A stretch of 64,000 bases of DNA from Alloascoidea africana (lineage: Eukaryota > Ascomycota > Alloascoideomycetes > Alloascoideales > Alloascoideaceae). Made by a program: the position numbers and the translations under genes. Below are positions 3,273 through 64,000 of the stretch, one piece after another. The stretch is from assembly GCA_030581615.1 (NCBI GenBank), contig JAKTTT010000070.1, forward strand, positions 43,494-107,493. Direction: 5' to 3'. Position 1 is the stretch's first letter. Each line of letters starts with the position of its first letter. The notes below the pieces were generated by a model, which searched no databases, was not told the origin of the DNA, and worked only from the letters and a program-made list of their open reading frames with translations.

Positions 3273-5353
3273 TTTTGTTTTTGCCAAAAATACAAGTAAC
3301 GTAGACAATGCTAGTCGCTCTTTTGATTTTTATTCCAAGCATATTACGAGGGTTGAATTTGATATTTATGCCCAGTACCAGGACCAGGTACATCAGGTCT
3401 AACCAAGTTGCATATTTGCAATGTATAGAATACTTTTTGCCAGCTTCCCCCTTGCATCATAAAATCCCCATCACATTTTGTGCTCAATTCACTTATTTGC
3501 TTTATCTTGAAACGTCGGATGGATATGTAGTTTCAACAAATGAATCAAAAAACTTGGATTCAAAGTATGTTCACCTACATTAAAGCATTGACAAACGAGA
3601 GTTTCAAATCAGCGCTATCTTCATTGTTTAACTAAGGAATTACACATTAATGCTCTTCACTTGTTGTGCTTTCGTCCTTTGTCTAGCTACTGATTTTGAG
3701 AGATTTGACATCTGCAGAGAAGACAGCTTTGCTGCATAAGACGGTTGTATTGATTCGTAGATGGAGAAACGATCGAGACACACGGAAAACAGAACAAAAC
3801 CAAGGAAAGCAAACAGAATCAGAAAAACTCCTCCCCGGTCCCCTGAGATCTCAGAGAACCAGTAGCTTTTATATTCGTCTAGAAACAAAAGCTACTATGT
3901 TTGAGATTACTGACACGCCTGTAATCGCGGACAAAGTTATTCATCTCGGTCTTGGCCTAATTTTGAGTGGCATAAGTTTGATGGATCACAAACACAATAT
4001 ATGACAACTCCACTTGGCTAGGACTACGAAATGGAGTTTGGTTATTGTGTGCAAATAGAAGAAAAACGATTCATATTCGTTCCATAGATAATAAACTCCA
4101 TCACAAGATATACTGAAGTAGTAGATATTTGGTCACCTCATTGAGAGAATGCTAAACAAGATATATAGTGATGGCTTGTCTTCTGTAACAATCAAATAAT
4201 CCTATGCGTTGGCGTTAAACCTCGGGTATACCTGAAAAAGTGCTAATCAATCTAAATAGATTCGCCTATAAAAGTAGTAAGCAATCGCCCCCTATATCTC
4301 ATAAGTAATCAACAATTGTCTTCTTTTTTTACCACTGAGTTCTCTTATGCCAGGGCTAAGCCCTGGCATTTCATTTTGTTAGAAGCAAATTAGGTTACCC
4401 GCACAACACTTGAACTTTTAACCGAGAATTCAAGTCTACACTCCACCATCCTTTTCCTTGTTCATGGGCATTGGAATGGGTATGTTGATTTTTGGTTTTT
4501 ACAATTACAGCAATTGTTGAAAATACGGATAGGCTATGCTATTGTTCAAAATGATGTTATAATTTGCGGTTGAGTTCATATCAGAGTCGGGACATGCCTA
4601 GTTCCAATATGGCCTGTATGGGAAATGAAAGCAACACATCTTTGTCTGAATGAATGAAGGAAACAGCAGAAAGCTTTCCCTTTTCAATTCATTGCAACAT
4701 ATTGAAGGGCCATGTTACTAATAATTTTTCCAATTATCAGATTAAAGCAAACTTTGGAAATTGGATTAATCTCTCGCTGGCTCGAGAAATGGTATGTCAA
4801 TAAATTTTTACAGCCATTATTGGATGAGGGGATTATCATGATGAAAAACATTATCTGCTACTTTTATTGAAGTTCATAATGAAAACTTTCTAATTATCAC
4901 CAAGATCGCTGATGATTTTTCCCTCACTCTCTATCATATCTGTACTCTGTTCACTCTAAGTGAATTTAATCATGGTTACTAACTGGATTGTCTTATGACT
5001 AAAGTATCAATTACTTTGCTTTTAAACTAAATAATCGAAATAAAATATACTGTTTTATCCTCCAAATTGCTCTGTAATCTTCTCGTAGCATTCTTTATAA
5101 GATTAGTTGGAAAACAAGTTCCCTTTTGTCTGACAAGCCACGAATCGTATTTCTCCCGAATAAACATCTATCCATAGAAGGTATTACTATATTTTTCAAG
5201 TAAAAGTAAAAGCCAAAGCTTCCAAGTTTCTATTCAAGACACAATCAGATGACCACGTGACTTCAATACATTGTGAGATAGCACACATTTCTGTTTCTCT
5301 GTCTGGACATCAAGGCAAGAGCACTTTCCAGTAGAACTTCATAAAGAAACGTC
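3273..5353. other. Intergenic, no gene seen
   Basis: AT-rich sequence with only short, unsupported frames on both strands. No further tRNA or repeat family was recognised. Confidence 0.6.
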
Positions 5354-34238: not shown

Positions 34239-35453
34239 TCACAAAACAGAAACCAGGAGTGCGAATAGTAAGCCTGCTCGCTGATACCCAAGCGTTGATG
34301 CAGAATCCTTGCTAGTGGATTCGGAGTTGGAGTCAGAGCCGGAGTCAGAGCCGGAGTGGCCACCTGCAGAAGCAGAATGTCCCTTGCAAACAAATTTCCC
34401 CCTGACATTCTTCTTGACTTTTTTCAAAGAAGAACAGTCTAAGTCTTCACTAGAAATTGCTTTAAATACTCCGCGCACAGAAGTGATTTCCGGAAAAGAA
34501 ATGTTTTGAAAAGCTCCTTGGAGAATAATCGAACCATAAACGCTTTCTAAGTCGTCAAAGGAATTAAACTCATTGAGTTTTGAATTGTTAACAAAAAGCA
34601 AATCTCCTCCTAATTTTTCAACTTCATTAACTTTTACTGATGACAAATCCCCGTTATTTGTGACTGCAATTGTTTGGCCAATCTCTGTGAGGTTACTCAA
34701 ATCTAGCTTCTCAAGTGAACTCTCGTAGATCCCAATAGACTCGTTTACAGTTTTCAGGTGTTGGAATGAGACACTTGATGCTTTGGAGATTGTAATATTA
34801 TTAGCCCACCTCAAGTGATCGAAGGCGATGGGGAGTCCCTCGCCGTTTGAAGTAATGCTTAGTGCGCCGCTTATTGTTTGTAAGGATGAATCAATTTCCT
34901 CCAAGTAGTTGTTATTATTCAAGTTGTACTCGTCAGTATTATTCACTTTAATGCTGTCGATCGTTGTCAGACCGGTGTCAGAGATCATGATCTTTTCTGC
35001 TTCGGCTAATCCATTTGTGAATCCCAACTTGGTCAAACGGGGAAGGGCAACAAAGTCAAGTTTTCCCACCTTGGTCAAAACGGGAAGCGTAAGAGTGTCT
35101 AACACGGTCAAACTGTATAGTTTGAACTTATCATCGATAATTGTCAAGTCTCCTGCTGAAAAGCTAGCTAGTTGGGTAGCATTGTTGATAATGAGCGATC
35201 CCTCAATTCTTTCAGTGCCATCTAAACTGGCATATCCCATATCACCAGTGAGATAAATGTCGCCAGTAACTGTTCTACAACCAGAAACTTGGCTTAGATC
35301 GGCCTGAGCTGTTGCTGTTAGCTTTTCAGTAAGACTGCATTGAGCTAGAAGTAAAATGAGATTAGAAGACGGTGATTATATTCTAGACCGAAGGAATTGC
35401 TTACCAGCACTTAACCCGAGCCCAAGGGAAACAAGCAAAGCGTAAGAGAGCAT
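34239..35453 (-). CDS. ECM33: ECM33-family GPI-anchored cell-wall protein, 2 exons
   Basis: 384 residues. Exons on the minus strand are 35453-35405 and 35344-34239. The 60-nt intron starts GTAAGC, has a TTCTAAT branch site and ends TTCTAG. The first exon encodes the signal peptide MLSYALLVSLGLGLSA. The mature part begins QCSLTEKLTATAQADLSQVS, typical of the Ecm33/Sps2 receptor-L-type leucine-rich fold, with repeated short strands up to about residue 330. A Ser/Gly/Asp-rich spacer (SGSDSGSDSNSEST) and a hydrophobic tail (AGLLFALLVSVL) fit a GPI attachment signal. Needed for cell-wall integrity in yeasts. Confidence 0.93.
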
Positions 35454-41742: not shown

Positions 41743-43527
41743 ATGAAGCTGTCACCGTTTACCATCTCAGCCTTACTTTTGGCAAGTGCTCATAGTGGGT
41801 TTGCCGAAGAAGATGCCCAGGTAGCAAGACCTGATTTTAAGGTATGAACACCATTGAATGGTTGTTGAGAGATTCCTGCAGCTAAGCATCGAGCACTAAC
41901 TGTGGGTTCACAGCCGTTGTCAATCAAAGCCCCATTCTTTGAACAGTTTGATAAGGATCCAGAGTCTAGATGGAAAGTCTCTCACGTAAAAAAAGAGGGT
42001 GAACAAGAACTTTCGTACACCGGAAAATGGAAATTCGAGGAACCCCATGTTTTCCCAGGGTTTAAAGGTGATAAAGGCTTAGTCCTGAAGACGCCAGCTG
42101 CTCGCCATGCGATCAGTGCCGAATTTGAGGAGATATTTGATAACACTGATAATACTTTAGTCCTCCAGTATGAGATCAAGACACAGGATGGGCTCAATTG
42201 TGGTGGTGCCTATCTCAAATTGCTCTCTGCGCAGGATAAGGTTGATCCAGAACAGTTTTCTGGGGACACACCTTATCAATTGATGTTTGGTCCCGACAAA
42301 TGTGGTAGTACGAATAAAGTTCATTTAATTATCCGTCGCAAGAATCCATTCACCGGCGAATACGAGGAGAAACATTTGAACAATGCTCCAATGGGTAGAT
42401 ATCCTAAGCATTCAGTTCTGTACACACTTATTATTAAGCCAAATCAGGATTTTGAGATTAGAATCAATGGCGAAGTTGCAAAGGCTGGTAATTTACTTGA
42501 CCCTAAGGTTCTCAAGCCTTCCCTGGATCCACCGGAAGAAATTGACGACGAAACTGATGTCAAGCCTGAAGATTGGGTCGATGAGCAAAAAATTCCAGAC
42601 CCCGACCAGGCTGTTAAGCCAGACGACTGGGATGAAGATGCACCATACGAAATTCCTGATCCGGAAGCAAAAAAACCTATCGATTGGGATGAGGAGGCAC
42701 CTGAGTATATTCCAGACCCCGAAGCCGAGATACCTGATGATTGGGATGAAGAAGAGGATGGCGAGTGGATTGCACCGGAGATTTACAACCCTGAATGTGA
42801 AGAACATGGCTGTGGTCCTTGGAACCCTCCAAAGATCAAGAACCCAGAGTACAAGGGCAAATGGAGACAGCCTCTTGTAGATAACCCATCATACAAAGGA
42901 GAATGGACACCACGTAAAGTTCCCAATCCACATTACTATAGAGATAGGACTCCTTCCAACTTGGAACCTATTTCTGCTATTGGATTCGAACTCTGGACTA
43001 TGCAAGCCAACATCCTCTTTGACAATATCTACCTTGGGCATTCTATTGAGCAGGCTGAAGAGATTGGAAATTCTACTTTTGTTCCCAAGTTGAATATCGA
43101 AGAAGAAGTGGCCGATGCAACTGCTCCAAAAGCCGACATCGAGCCTGAAGCTCCACCTTCTTTTGAAGACGAGACCGAGGGGTCTTCAACCATTGATATT
43201 ATTAAAGATGCGCTCAATGACCTTCTTATTGACATCCAAGCTTATGTTCGAGCCTTTCAGCTTGATCCCTTGGGAACACTTCAAAAAGACCCTATTTCTG
43301 CCATTACATATTCTTGTATTTTCCTTGGACTTTTCACCCTAGTCTTCGGTATTGGAAACTCCATTATATTTTTAATTTCAAATGGATTCAAACCTGTTTC
43401 TGTGATTGAGAAAGAAGCAGCTGCTTCCAAGAAACAAGAGAAAGAATCTGGCGAGGACGGAGAGCAAGAAGGTGCAACAAGCTCTTCCAAGAAGAGTGAA
43501 ACTAAGGCAAAAAGGAGAGTTTTGTAG
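41743..43527 (+). CDS. CNE1: Calnexin, ER lectin chaperone, 2 exons
   Basis: 570 residues. Exons 41743-41841 and 41914-43527. The 72-nt intron starts GTATGA and ends ACTAACTGTGGGTTCACAG. Exon 1 supplies the signal peptide (LSPFTISALLLASAHSGFA). The junction restores DFKPLSIKAPFFEQFD, the family N-terminus. Lectin domain with GGAYLKLLS and MFGPDKCGS. The P domain has four type-1 repeats (KPEDWVDEQKIPDPDQ and the next three) and type-2 repeats (GPWNPPKIKNPEYKGKW and the next two). One membrane segment at about 490-515 (YSCIFLGLFTLVFGIGNSII), then a Glu/Ser/Lys cytosolic tail. It binds monoglucosylated N-glycoproteins during folding. Confidence 0.96.
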
Positions 43528-58884: not shown

Positions 58885-59109
58885 ATGTTCAACAACGAAG
58901 CACCTTATTGTATGCTGATGGCTAGTTCCAGTTCTCAAATCTACTACTCACGGGTAAAGTTTTGTGAAGTAGCTTGTGCTCATGTGACCAAGTTACCAGA
59001 TACTGTACGAGATACACTTTTAAGTTGCCAATGTGAACAGTTTCCAGTTGCAGCAATTGCTTTATGGACAAAAATAGGTTTGGATAAGGAAGAAAAATGT
59101 CTAGCTTAG
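58885..59109 (+). CDS. Small ORF divergent from SCO1, unrecognised
   Basis: 74 residues from the ATG at 58885. It is Cys-rich (seven Cys) with a plausible mixed composition (HVTKLPDTVRDTLLSCQCEQ, then FPVAAIALWTKIGLDKEEKC). No signal peptide, membrane segment or known family was recognised. Only 28 bases separate it from the SCO1 ATG; SAD1 and the prolidase in this window are only 38 bases apart, so such spacing is possible here. It could also be a chance frame or the first exon of a larger gene, though no good donor site was found near its end. Confidence 0.35.
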   Translation: MFNNEAPYCMLMASSSSQIYYSRVKFCEVACAHVTKLPDTVRDTLLSCQCEQFPVAAIALWTKIGLDKEEKCLA

Positions 59110-61983
59110 TAAAACTTCTGAAGCTTCAAGCTGTTTAGCGAGAAATGTCCCAAGGCAGAGAAGACAAGTCCGTTGCGGTTAGTTGTCTGTGCCATGTGGA
59201 AGGAAGGCCAGATGAATTTATATCACTTTACTAAACGTCACCAAACCTACAGCTAGACTAAGTGAAGGAGCATAAGAAAGAATCGAAACAAATTCTGGCA
59301 GAAGTACAGTCCTACAGGCCCCCTAGTACTACCAGCTAGAAAAATTGATTAAGCGCGTACCTAGACGACTACCGTTTCTTGTCTGGCCATGGCAAAACCT
59401 GGGATGCGTTTGCTAAAGTCGATTACATTTTTCTAGCCCAGATGTTGCAGATACTGAGCAAGGTAAAAAATCCTGTACTTGAGTGTATATATACCGATAG
59501 GAGGTAGGTGGATTTCCTATTCATATTCTCAGAGGTAGGACTTTTATGGGAGCCTGATTTGATCGTAGCGAAGACTACAATATTTTACTTTTCAGAACAT
59601 ATCTCATTTAAACTTCTCTTCTAGCCGTTCCAAGGGAAGCCACTCACAGCTGTGAACTTTCAAAGCTTAAACAATCTATTTTGTTGGCCCATACCAACAG
59701 GTGTATGGGTGGAGTCCAAGCAATTCCAAATTGATGGTTCCTCCTAAATGGCATCTTTAAACTAATCGTAAACACTAATGGTTAAAAAAGATTGGAGTAT
59801 TTCCCTTTTCGCCACTAATTTATTCTAATCTTTTATATTTAGATATTAGAAAGAGGCAAACTGAGAATGAGAGAGAAGCAGCTTAAAGGATACAGAGTGT
59901 CGTTTCTCCAACAGAATGATCTCACATTGATTTGATTTTTTTGATGGTAGAGCACAATTCGACTATTGAGAATCATAAATAACAACAACTTTAGGATCCA
60001 TCCAGAGGTCACCTCAACGAAAGCAAAATAGGAAATGGCGATTCGGGCTTTTTTGCCAGAGGCCGAGTATATCAATTTACGATAGCTAGAGACTCCTATA
60101 TGCCAATTGACTAGGTTATCTATTTTCAAAGGAGCAGAATATACTTAGTTTCCAATCCAAAAAGTGAAAGGAGCATACACTTCCATATTCGAAGTGTAAT
60201 ATGCAGAAAACAATTATCTCAATTTCACACTTTACTCACCTATTCATCTTCATAACCATTAGTCATTCTATCGGCTTCGAAAATTGGCATCTCAAATATT
60301 CCTTTAAACCATTGCACAAGCAGCTGCATTCGTTTGTAAAGCTTTTCTTTTCTTTTCTTTTTAGTTTAACAAATCCTTATTGTTCAACAAATCTTGACAT
60401 ATTTATGATACCGTTTTTTCTCAATTCCATCATCTGCCCGATGCATTTAAAATTCGTACATGAAAAAGGAAGGAAAATGTATGTCCTAGTTGTCCTGTGA
60501 GGTACTGGACCGCCTGATCAAAAACCATATGCTTTCTGTATTAAGACGAACGCAGATATGTGAGCATGCTGAAAGAATTTTCAGGTACTAATCATTTATG
60601 GCGGAGTTGATTTCTTCATCTGTTCGCATATGAACATCCAAAATACTTATGCGCTACCACAAATACAATCTATATGTTGCATAAATATGCCGGTGGTGCA
60701 AGATTTGGTTGAACTACGGTTGGAAAAATAATAGAAGTAAGGGAGGAAGGTTCATTTGGCCCGACCGTTTCATTCTATACCCAGAAGCATCAAGAAATGT
60801 AGAAGATAAGAAGCGAAACCTGGAAAATATACTGCCTTGTACTTCAAGTTTTGTCAGTCTAAAAATAGTGATATTGATAGAAGAGACCCTTTCCGGTACG
60901 TTTCTAGTATAGTCAGGTCTCTTGCTTCTTCAATTATCACTAGGATGCTTAGGTCTGAGACAGAAACCATCTCCATCTTGACCGTAAAGTAGAAAGTTCA
61001 GTTCCTTGGCAACAGGTCAAAAAACGGTAGAGATGCCCAGAAGCGCAGGTCTTGACTATTTTCAAGGCGTTATTCCCAGCACCGTACAGATCAGTAAGGA
61101 GAATAGAATTTTCGTTGCATGTTGCAGATACAACTTTCTTCGTATCTATAGTAGTGCCTATAACCAATGAGTGTCTTTGTAATCTTTTTCATCCATCATT
61201 TCGGTCAGTGGGTAGGTCACACACGCAAAGGCGAGAAAAACATAACTGTTGAAAATAGAGATCAAAAAGAATATCATAGCCACATCTACTCCAACCAGAA
61301 TACGGGGTGTTACAACAGTAGCCTGAATAAAATAGAAATCTTACAACAGTGAGTGAAGCTATTTAAGCAATAATTCTTTTCATGTTTGAATCTCAGATAT
61401 GCATCGAATCTCGTTAGGAAAGTTATTTCAACTCTATTTTACCAGAAAAACGATGCAGGTATCCCGATATGATGTAGTGCAGGTCCTTTCGGCAATTGTT
61501 TTACGACATTTTTTTTGTTGTGTAGGAAAAATGTACTAGGGACCTGAACATACATGATGTAGCTCCGTCATCTTTGACAGATGCAAAATTTATGAAACGC
61601 CTTAATAGTGACTTGGGTGGAACGCAATTTGACAGTTGTACTGGTACAACCATCTTCAAAGGATTGTTTTTTGATAATGATCAAAGTAAATAATAATTTG
61701 CTTGAGAGCGTGCTATCAAATTCGACTTTTTAATTTTCTGGGTACCTACGCCAGATGTAAATTGTTCTGTAGTGAACGTGTATCATCACGTAAAGAAACC
61801 AACTGGTGTTAGTATCATTTAAGTAAGGTCAATTTTTTTCATTTTCCCTTTCTAATATTTAAACTTGACAACTTGTCTGTTCTTCTCCAAAAAAGCATTC
61901 TAGACATTCTTTTCAAGACCCACACTCTTTCACTAATTTTTATCAACACATTCGTTTAATACATTCGTTAAACCATCTTTAAG
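59110..61983. other. Long gene-free region upstream of the adhesin-like gene
   Basis: 2.9 kb with no supported gene. Long upstream regions are common for cell-surface adhesin genes in yeasts. The last 150 bases are T/C-rich and form the probable leader. Confidence 0.55.
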
Positions 61984-64000
61984 ATGATAATCCAAAAACT
62001 CACAGCACCTTCAGTGCTGATATCATCTCTGGTAGCCGCCACAAGTGCTTGCGAATTCGTCAACGTCTGCGATTCGGATGATTTTAATTCCAAGCAAGGG
62101 AGCAGCTGTCCAAAAGGTTCACTTGATGTTTACAATGTTCTTTACCAAAAAGATGGCAGTTATAATGTCTACATTAACGTCAATCTTGAGACATCTCTGG
62201 GAAATTCAGATTTACGTGAACTTAAGTTTACCTCTCCAAAAACTGAAGTTCTCTATTCCAAGAATATTCCTGGTAGCTACGACGCTTCGTTGAATTGTGC
62301 TCATTTTTCCCATGTTTTCAATATTCCGTCTTCTGCCGTCTACGATTACTCAGAATCTGTCCAATGCATTGACCAACTTGCCATTCAGTACGATTTCAAT
62401 AGCGTAAGCTGCGATTATCGAACTGGGTGTGATACAGGCGGAGCAGATAGTCCAACGATTTGTTGGAAGAAAGAATACAACCCATACAGTAAGTTATCCT
62501 TTAAAGTGTTTGCCGCGTGATGTATCAGTTTAACTAACCTTTAACAGTCCCAACTACTAAGCCTCATACCACTTTAACTTCTGACTGTGACGAAAAAACC
62601 ACCACCAAAGTCACACCTACACCTTCAACTTTCTGCGATGATAAGGAAACTACTTCCACAACGCTCAAGCCTACCACAAGTTCTACCATTTCCTACCCCA
62701 CGTGTGCTATTCAGAGCTTTGAGGATATTTGTGGAGATGTCAAGTTTAATAGCAAAGTTGGTAGTAATTGTCCAGTCGGTACTATCGATGTTATAAGCGT
62801 TTCTGAGTTGACCAGCGGCAATTTTGCTGTTACAGTCCATGTAGATTTGGATACGTCACTCACCAACTCCGATCTTTGGGAGCTCAAATTCACAACTCCT
62901 AATGACATCCTTTACTCTCATAACATTCCAGGTGACTACGACACTTCCGTTAACTTTGTTGATTTCACACACACTTTAACCGTTCCTGCGTCATACATCA
63001 ACCACTATTCAGACAGCATATCGTGCATATCTCAAATTTCAATTCAATATGATTTCTACAGCGTCAGTTGTGATTATAGAACAGGTTGCGACGCTGGAGG
63101 AGCTGACAGTCCTACCATATGTTGGAAGAAGCAGACCGAATGTCTTTCTAGCTCTTCCAGTGCACCAGTTCCATCAGTATCTTCGTCTGTTCCAGCTCCT
63201 TCAAGTGAATCCGTGTCTTCGTCTGTACCAGTTCCATCTTCCAGCGGATGCACTTACATCACATCCTGGACATCGAAACACAAGACTTTTACTAGCACAA
63301 TTGTTACCGACTGTTCCAGCGCACCAGTTCCTTCAAGTGAATCAGTGTCTTCATCTGCACCAGTTCCTTCAAGCGAATCCGTGTCTTCGTCTGCACCAGT
63401 TCCATCTTCCAGCGGATGCACTTACATCACATCCTGGACATCGAAACACAAGACTTTCACTAGCACAATTGTAACCGACTGTTCCAGCGCACCAGTTCCT
63501 TCAAGTGAATCAGTGTCTTCATCTGCACCAGTTCCTTCAAGCGAATCCGTGTCTTCGTCTGTACCAGTTCCATCTTCCAGCGGATGCACTTACATCACAT
63601 CCTGGACATCGAAACACAAGACTTTCACTAGCACAATTGTAACTGATTGTTCCAGCGCACCAGTTCCTTCAAGCAAATCAGCATCGTCTTCTGCACCAAT
63701 TCCATCAAGTGAATCCGTGTCTTCATCTGCACCAGTTCCTTCAAGTGAATCAGTGTCTTCGTCTGCACCAGTTCCTTCAAGTGAATCCGTGTCTTCGTCT
63801 GCACCAGTTCCATCTTCCAGTGGATGCACTTACATCACATCCTGGACATCGAAACACAAGACTTTCACTAGCACAATCGTAACTGATTGTTCCAGCGCAC
63901 CAGTTCCTTCAAGTGAATCAGTATCTTCGTCTGTTCCAGCTCCTTCAAGTGAATCAGTATCTTCGTCTGCACCAGTTCCTTCAAGTGAATCAGTATCTTC
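61984..64000 (+). CDS. Cell-wall adhesin-like protein with duplicated N-terminal domain, partial at the 3' end
   Basis: Exon 1 is 61984-62488; intron 62489-62547 (59 nt, GTAAGT ... ACTAACCTTTAACAG); exon 2 is 62548 to beyond the window. The joined frame has no stop to the last base. Signal peptide at about 1-22 (SVLISSLVAATSA). Two related domains of about 140 residues follow, at 62050-62487 and 62701-63141. They share SCPKGSLDVYN / NCPVGTIDVIS, NSDLRELKFTSP / NSDLWELKFTTP, NIPG.YD, and SVSCDYRTGCD.GGADSPTI followed by CWKK. A Thr/Pro/Lys-rich linker separates them. From about 63150 come Ser/Pro/Val repeats of 12 residues (APVPSSESVSSS) and a Cys-flanked block GCTYITSWTSK...TIVTDC, seen four times. 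Expected to be secreted, heavily O-mannosylated and cell-wall bound; the GPI end lies outside the window. The domain itself was not recognised. Confidence 0.85.
62489..62547 (+). other. Spliceosomal intron in the adhesin-like gene
   Basis: 59 nt, starts GTAAGT, branch site AACTAAC followed 10 nt later by the acceptor TTTAACAG. Read unspliced, the frame stops at 62518-62520. Spliced (phase 1, A plus TC gives Ile), it continues to the window end. Confidence 0.85.
63150..64000 (+). repeat. Coding minisatellite: 36-bp units and 168-bp higher-order repeat
   Basis: The Cys-flanked block starts (GGATGC) at 63246, 63414, 63582 and 63822. Spacings are 168, 168 and 240 bases, the last being 168 plus two 36-bp units. 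Between the blocks, 36-bp units coding for 12 residues occur in two or more copies. All lengths are multiples of three, so the frame is kept. Copies are almost identical at the DNA level, including silent sites. Confidence 0.9.

Follow-up and report, generated by a model that had tools for sequence, protein, structure and literature searches.

A probable two-headed Flo11-type adhesin gene in Alloascoidea africana

The window analyzed here, a 64,000-nucleotide stretch of DNA from Alloascoidea africana, carries at its end a gene that very probably encodes a two-headed Flo11-type adhesin, secreted and wall-fixed, which would function in homotypic cell-cell adhesion. The gene begins with an ATG at position 61984 on the forward strand, and its frame is open up to position 64000, the end of the window. 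On the basis of profile searches and predicted folds, it appears to be a divergent further Flo11-type adhesin, ordinary within the known family and not a new kind of adhesin.

The first head is delineated by residues 23-163 (62050..62472, forward strand) and the second by residues 221-363 (62703..63131, forward strand). When the copies were scanned singly against the Pfam Flo11 profile (PF10182), for which the curated gathering cut-off is 25 bits, the scores were 38.4 bits for copy 1 and 40.4 bits for copy 2. The whole protein, which runs to 652 residues without a stop once its two exons are joined, matches the same profile with an E-value of 6.8e-19. Besides Flo11, a Pfam scan of the 652 residues at E-values up to 1 returned only a sub-threshold match to DUF3641 (E 0.53), and at that limit there was no match to the PA14/GLEYA, Als, or hyphally-regulated domains. 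Searches of the PDB sequences with the single copies led to Saccharomyces cerevisiae Flo11 (ScFlo11) at E-values of 0.11 (copy 1) and 0.051 (copy 2); for copy 2, two unrelated weak matches ranked below it. With a profile constructed from both copies, the ScFlo11 chains were the only PDB sequences matched up to an E-value of 10 (E 1.2e-4 and 1.8e-4), and Komagataella pastoris Flo11 (KpFlo11) was not matched even at that limit.

AlphaFold models of the heads reached best mean pLDDT values of 61.0 for copy 1 and 68.9 for copy 2, with others down to 39.7 and 47.8, respectively. The four best Foldseek matches in the PDB to both models were the Flo11 chains 5fv5, 5fv6, 4uys, and 4uyr, with E-values of 4.9e-5 to 1.1e-3 (copy 1) and 5.5e-4 to 3.5e-3 (copy 2). 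The matches ranked next after these chains had E-values of 0.022 and 0.076. Query TM-scores for the Flo11 fold matches were 0.54-0.63, with root-mean-square deviations of 4.7-6.0 Å. By fold search, and with models of modest confidence, the heads thus appear to adopt the fibronectin III-like Flo11 fold. The initial annotation had proposed an adhesin layout with an unrecognized head, having weighed the PA14/Flo, Als, and hyphally-regulated domains and left unconsidered the Flo11 domain, which is the actual match. The layout itself, namely a signal-peptide-like start, a head, a Ser/Pro stalk, and an intron, fits the present results. The novelty of the head, which was to fall with a profile match to a described domain, does not survive: both copies lie above the PF10182 cut-off and Flo11 structures come first in the fold search, and the head is therefore a described domain. 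A new head domain can accordingly be set aside, with Pfam and the fold search both naming Flo11.

The two copies are identical at 81 of 140 aligned residues, and their local alignment score of 442 compares with a maximum of 61 among 500 shuffles. Both terminate in the signature DYRTGCD(T/A)GGADSPTICWKK. The two related Cys-rich domains and the shared DYRTGCD signature at their ends, as first noticed, are therefore confirmed. At the codon level, the copies agree at 110 of 140 second positions versus 48 of 140 third positions, and thus both look constrained at the amino-acid level. The value of dN between them is 0.33 (NG86), and there is no valid dS (the program returned -1), which is compatible with saturation. 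Taken together with the codon-position agreement, these values indicate that the duplication of the heads is old. Within the last 24 residues of the copies, all 24 second positions agree versus only nine of the third positions, and thus the likeness of the shared tail does not come from recent copying; on the same grounds, we reject that the tail was recently duplicated or exchanged by gene conversion. A tblastn search of the 64-kb window for further copies gave no match outside the two heads and the stalk. Three CTG codons occur in the joined frame, two of them in the hydrophobic N-terminus and the third at residue 72, for which the counterpart in copy 2 is a leucine specified by a different codon. 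Given these positions, a reading of CTG as serine is not favored. In the alcohol dehydrogenase, a weak check on the same question, five CTG codons face Leu, Ile, Ser, Val, and Lys of the yeast enzyme.

Exon 1 (61984..62488, forward strand), defined by its open frame, encodes the signal-peptide-like N-terminus, the first Flo11 domain, and the start of the linker. Exon 2 (62548..64000, forward strand) provides the remainder of the linker, the second Flo11 domain, and the stalk, and lies within a frame that extends from 62538 to 63998 and is open at the end of the window. These two non-overlapping frames are joined by a predicted intron of 59 nucleotides (62489..62547, forward strand) with the boundaries GTAAGT...TTAACTAACCTTTAACAG. 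Frame 1 reaches a stop at 62520, frame 2 first opens at 62538, and frame 2 contains no Met codon as far as the window's end. Because the frames do not overlap, a ribosomal frameshift in place of the intron is ruled out, and because the second lacks a Met, a separate gene beginning in frame 2 is unlikely; the layout is explained by neither. The 59-nt intron proposed in the initial annotation is in keeping with this arrangement. With donors at 62476-62520 and acceptors up to 62719, 12 GT-AG joins leave an uninterrupted frame. A GTAAGT donor is found in two of them, and of these two only 62489-62547 ends in a pyrimidine-AG, with a CTAAC ahead of that acceptor. The strict splice motif is by itself no better than chance (two seen versus 6.1 expected in the 64-kb window), and the frame argument is the stronger; the intron is predicted from the frame and not from the motif. 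An intron in a FLO11-type gene was not recognized in any report in a literature search at the level of result listings, which provides weak evidence of absence, and in PMC11979396 the sole mention of "intron" is a title in the reference list. The placement of an intron between two Flo11 copies is mildly unusual.

The chance-level count of the splice motif would also be in line with a broken gene, in which a true lesion, not an intron, interrupts the frame at 62489-62547. Such a lesion is, however, very improbable. Long open frames lie on both sides of the break, both heads appear to be under amino-acid-level constraint, and the break falls just after the end of a domain together with a donor, a CTAAC, and an acceptor. 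Additionally, a calnexin/calreticulin-family gene (PF00262) in the same window (41743-43527, forward strand) has a frame that requires a similar predicted intron, in this case of 72 nucleotides (41842-41913), with a CTAAC inside. An intact, spliced gene is the preferred reading. If the intron is retained, the frame stops after 178 residues. There is a slight chance that the intron after the first head serves as a switch, with splicing leading to the two-headed wall adhesin and retention to a 178-residue secreted single Flo11 head devoid of a stalk. Were this so, the secreted single head could coat neighbors or block adhesion among its own kind.

The heads of the predicted two-headed adhesin depart in part from the known Flo11 domains. 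In both copies, the match to PF10182 ends at position 116 of the 151 in the profile. The C-terminal pieces, 39 and 41 residues in length and including the DYRTGC...CWKK segment, gave no match on their own in Pfam or the PDB sequences, as short queries with little power. Short domains with a conserved Cys-rich C-terminal tail beyond the Pfam match are mildly unusual. According to PMC7156268, two aromatic surface bands form the homotypic contact of Flo11. The ScFlo11 numbering employed here was obtained from the chain positions with a shift of 29, which also places a tryptophan at W51 in agreement with PMC7156268. Band I residues Y111, Y113, and Y118 of ScFlo11 correspond to Tyr, Lys, and Tyr in copy 1 and, as read via the copy-copy alignment, to Tyr, His, and Tyr in copy 2. 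Band II residues Y133 and W144 correspond to Pro and Cys in a region where the alignment is weak, and Y196 lies outside of the alignment. Hence Y113, Y133, and W144 face non-aromatic residues in both copies, the latter two within the weakly aligned band II. These replacements, along with the distinctive Cys-rich tail and its unmatched C-terminal pieces, could point to a wall protein of the Flo11 fold with a changed job, one whose partner is not itself but a host, a sugar, or some surface. A change of partner is nevertheless unlikely in that tyrosines are retained at Y111 and Y118 in both copies, the band II alignment is weak, and the bands of KpFlo11A are merely similar to those of ScFlo11A, yet KpFlo11A binds homotypically (PMC7156268). 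Homotypic binding is the favored function. Flo11 domains of several yeasts, with identities to ScFlo11A down to 18%, all confer adhesive growth according to PMC7156268. Two copies that appear to be old and constrained, and whose contact residues are partly altered, could help in asking which surface residues decide cell partners.

The S. cerevisiae Flo11 (PF10182; PDB 4uyr, 4uys) is related to both copies by profile and fold, and it likewise displays an N-terminal head ahead of a Ser/Thr-rich repeat stalk. It differs in having one Flo11 domain (PMC8621652) versus the two observed here, and in part of its aromatic contact residues. From the initial Met through the last residue of copy 1 there are 163 residues, versus 185-240 residues for the Flo11 A region across the species of PMC7156268. 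The K. pastoris Flo11 (5fv5, 5fv6) provided the best fold matches for copy 1 and the third and fourth best for copy 2, but its identity in the fold alignments is 18-19%, and it had no counterpart in the sequence search up to an E-value of 10. Whereas KpFlo11 is described in PMC7156268 as having six exposed tryptophans and nine tyrosines, the whole copies here contain one and two tryptophans. Several Flo11 domains per protein are also known, by description, from Cyberlindnera fabianii (two), Clavispora lusitaniae (three), and Candida intermedia (six) (PMC8621652), and a figure legend in PMC7156268 refers to the first, second, and third domains of proteins. Flo11 adhesins with several heads are therefore already known and not new. 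The C. lusitaniae and C. intermedia proteins are additionally listed with flocculin type 3 repeats (PMC8621652), whereas none were found here.

The N-terminus, residues 1-22 (61984..62049, forward strand), is a probable signal peptide as judged by hydropathy; the stretch VLISSLVAA at residue 11 is the most hydrophobic of all nine-residue stretches among the 652 residues. The Ser/Thr/Pro-rich stalk, which is incomplete, occupies 63132..64000 (forward strand) and is built from nested tandem repeats of 36, 168, and 240 nucleotides. Tandem Repeats Finder places these repeats from 63173 to 64000 in 10 overlapping rows, and four complete GCTYITSWTSKHKTFTSTIVTDC units are present. The fraction of Ser, Thr, and Pro in residues 367-652 is 0.605. 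The Ser/Pro repeats earlier noted after the heads are thereby borne out, and they are still open at the end of the window. A Ser/Thr-rich repeat stalk, a feature of Flo11-type adhesins (PMC8621652), is thus present. Flocculin and flocculin type 3 repeats were not matched by Pfam in the adhesin, and PMC8621652 describes flocculin repeats as optional in Flo11-type adhesins.

By analogy with the characterized Flo11 proteins, we infer that the protein is secreted, glycosylated, anchored in the wall, and homotypically adhesive. It would enter the secretory pathway, its Ser/Thr/Pro stalk would probably be O-mannosylated, and it would probably be fixed to the wall glucan by a C-terminal GPI signal, predicted to lie past the window's end. 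The two Flo11 (fibronectin III-like) domains would be displayed in tandem on the stalk, and like cells would stick through homotypic Flo11-Flo11 contacts, as do ScFlo11 and KpFlo11. With two heads per molecule, a higher avidity would be expected; in PMC8621652, multiple Flo11 domains are likewise expected to increase the strength of interaction. For the Flo11 family, a role of homotypic adhesion in kin discrimination has been demonstrated (PMC7156268), and the gene would add a divergent two-domain example to this family.

The adhesin ATG is preceded by ∼3.1 kb (58905-61983) that contain no stop-to-stop frame of more than 110 codons and adjoin an SCO1-like gene (PF02630). The promoter of S. cerevisiae FLO11 is reported to exceed 3 kb (PMC8617999), and by analogy the upstream region is possibly a long promoter of the same type. 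In a scan of the window with Rfam, the matches were limited to two tRNAs and a single snoRNA, and the adhesin gene had none; the snoRNA is the C/D-box SNORD24 at 4835-4916 on the forward strand (50 bits, cut-off 41). Among viral contigs there were 47 pattern matches, of which none was confirmed. The window also contains genes for a Zn2Cys6 factor and a carboxypeptidase, which, together with the Flo11 domain, point most likely to an ascomycete yeast. Lastly, an open frame on the reverse strand (34239-35375) matches the Receptor L domain (PF01030, E 9.8e-6), and may resemble the fungal Ecm33/Sps2-like wall proteins.
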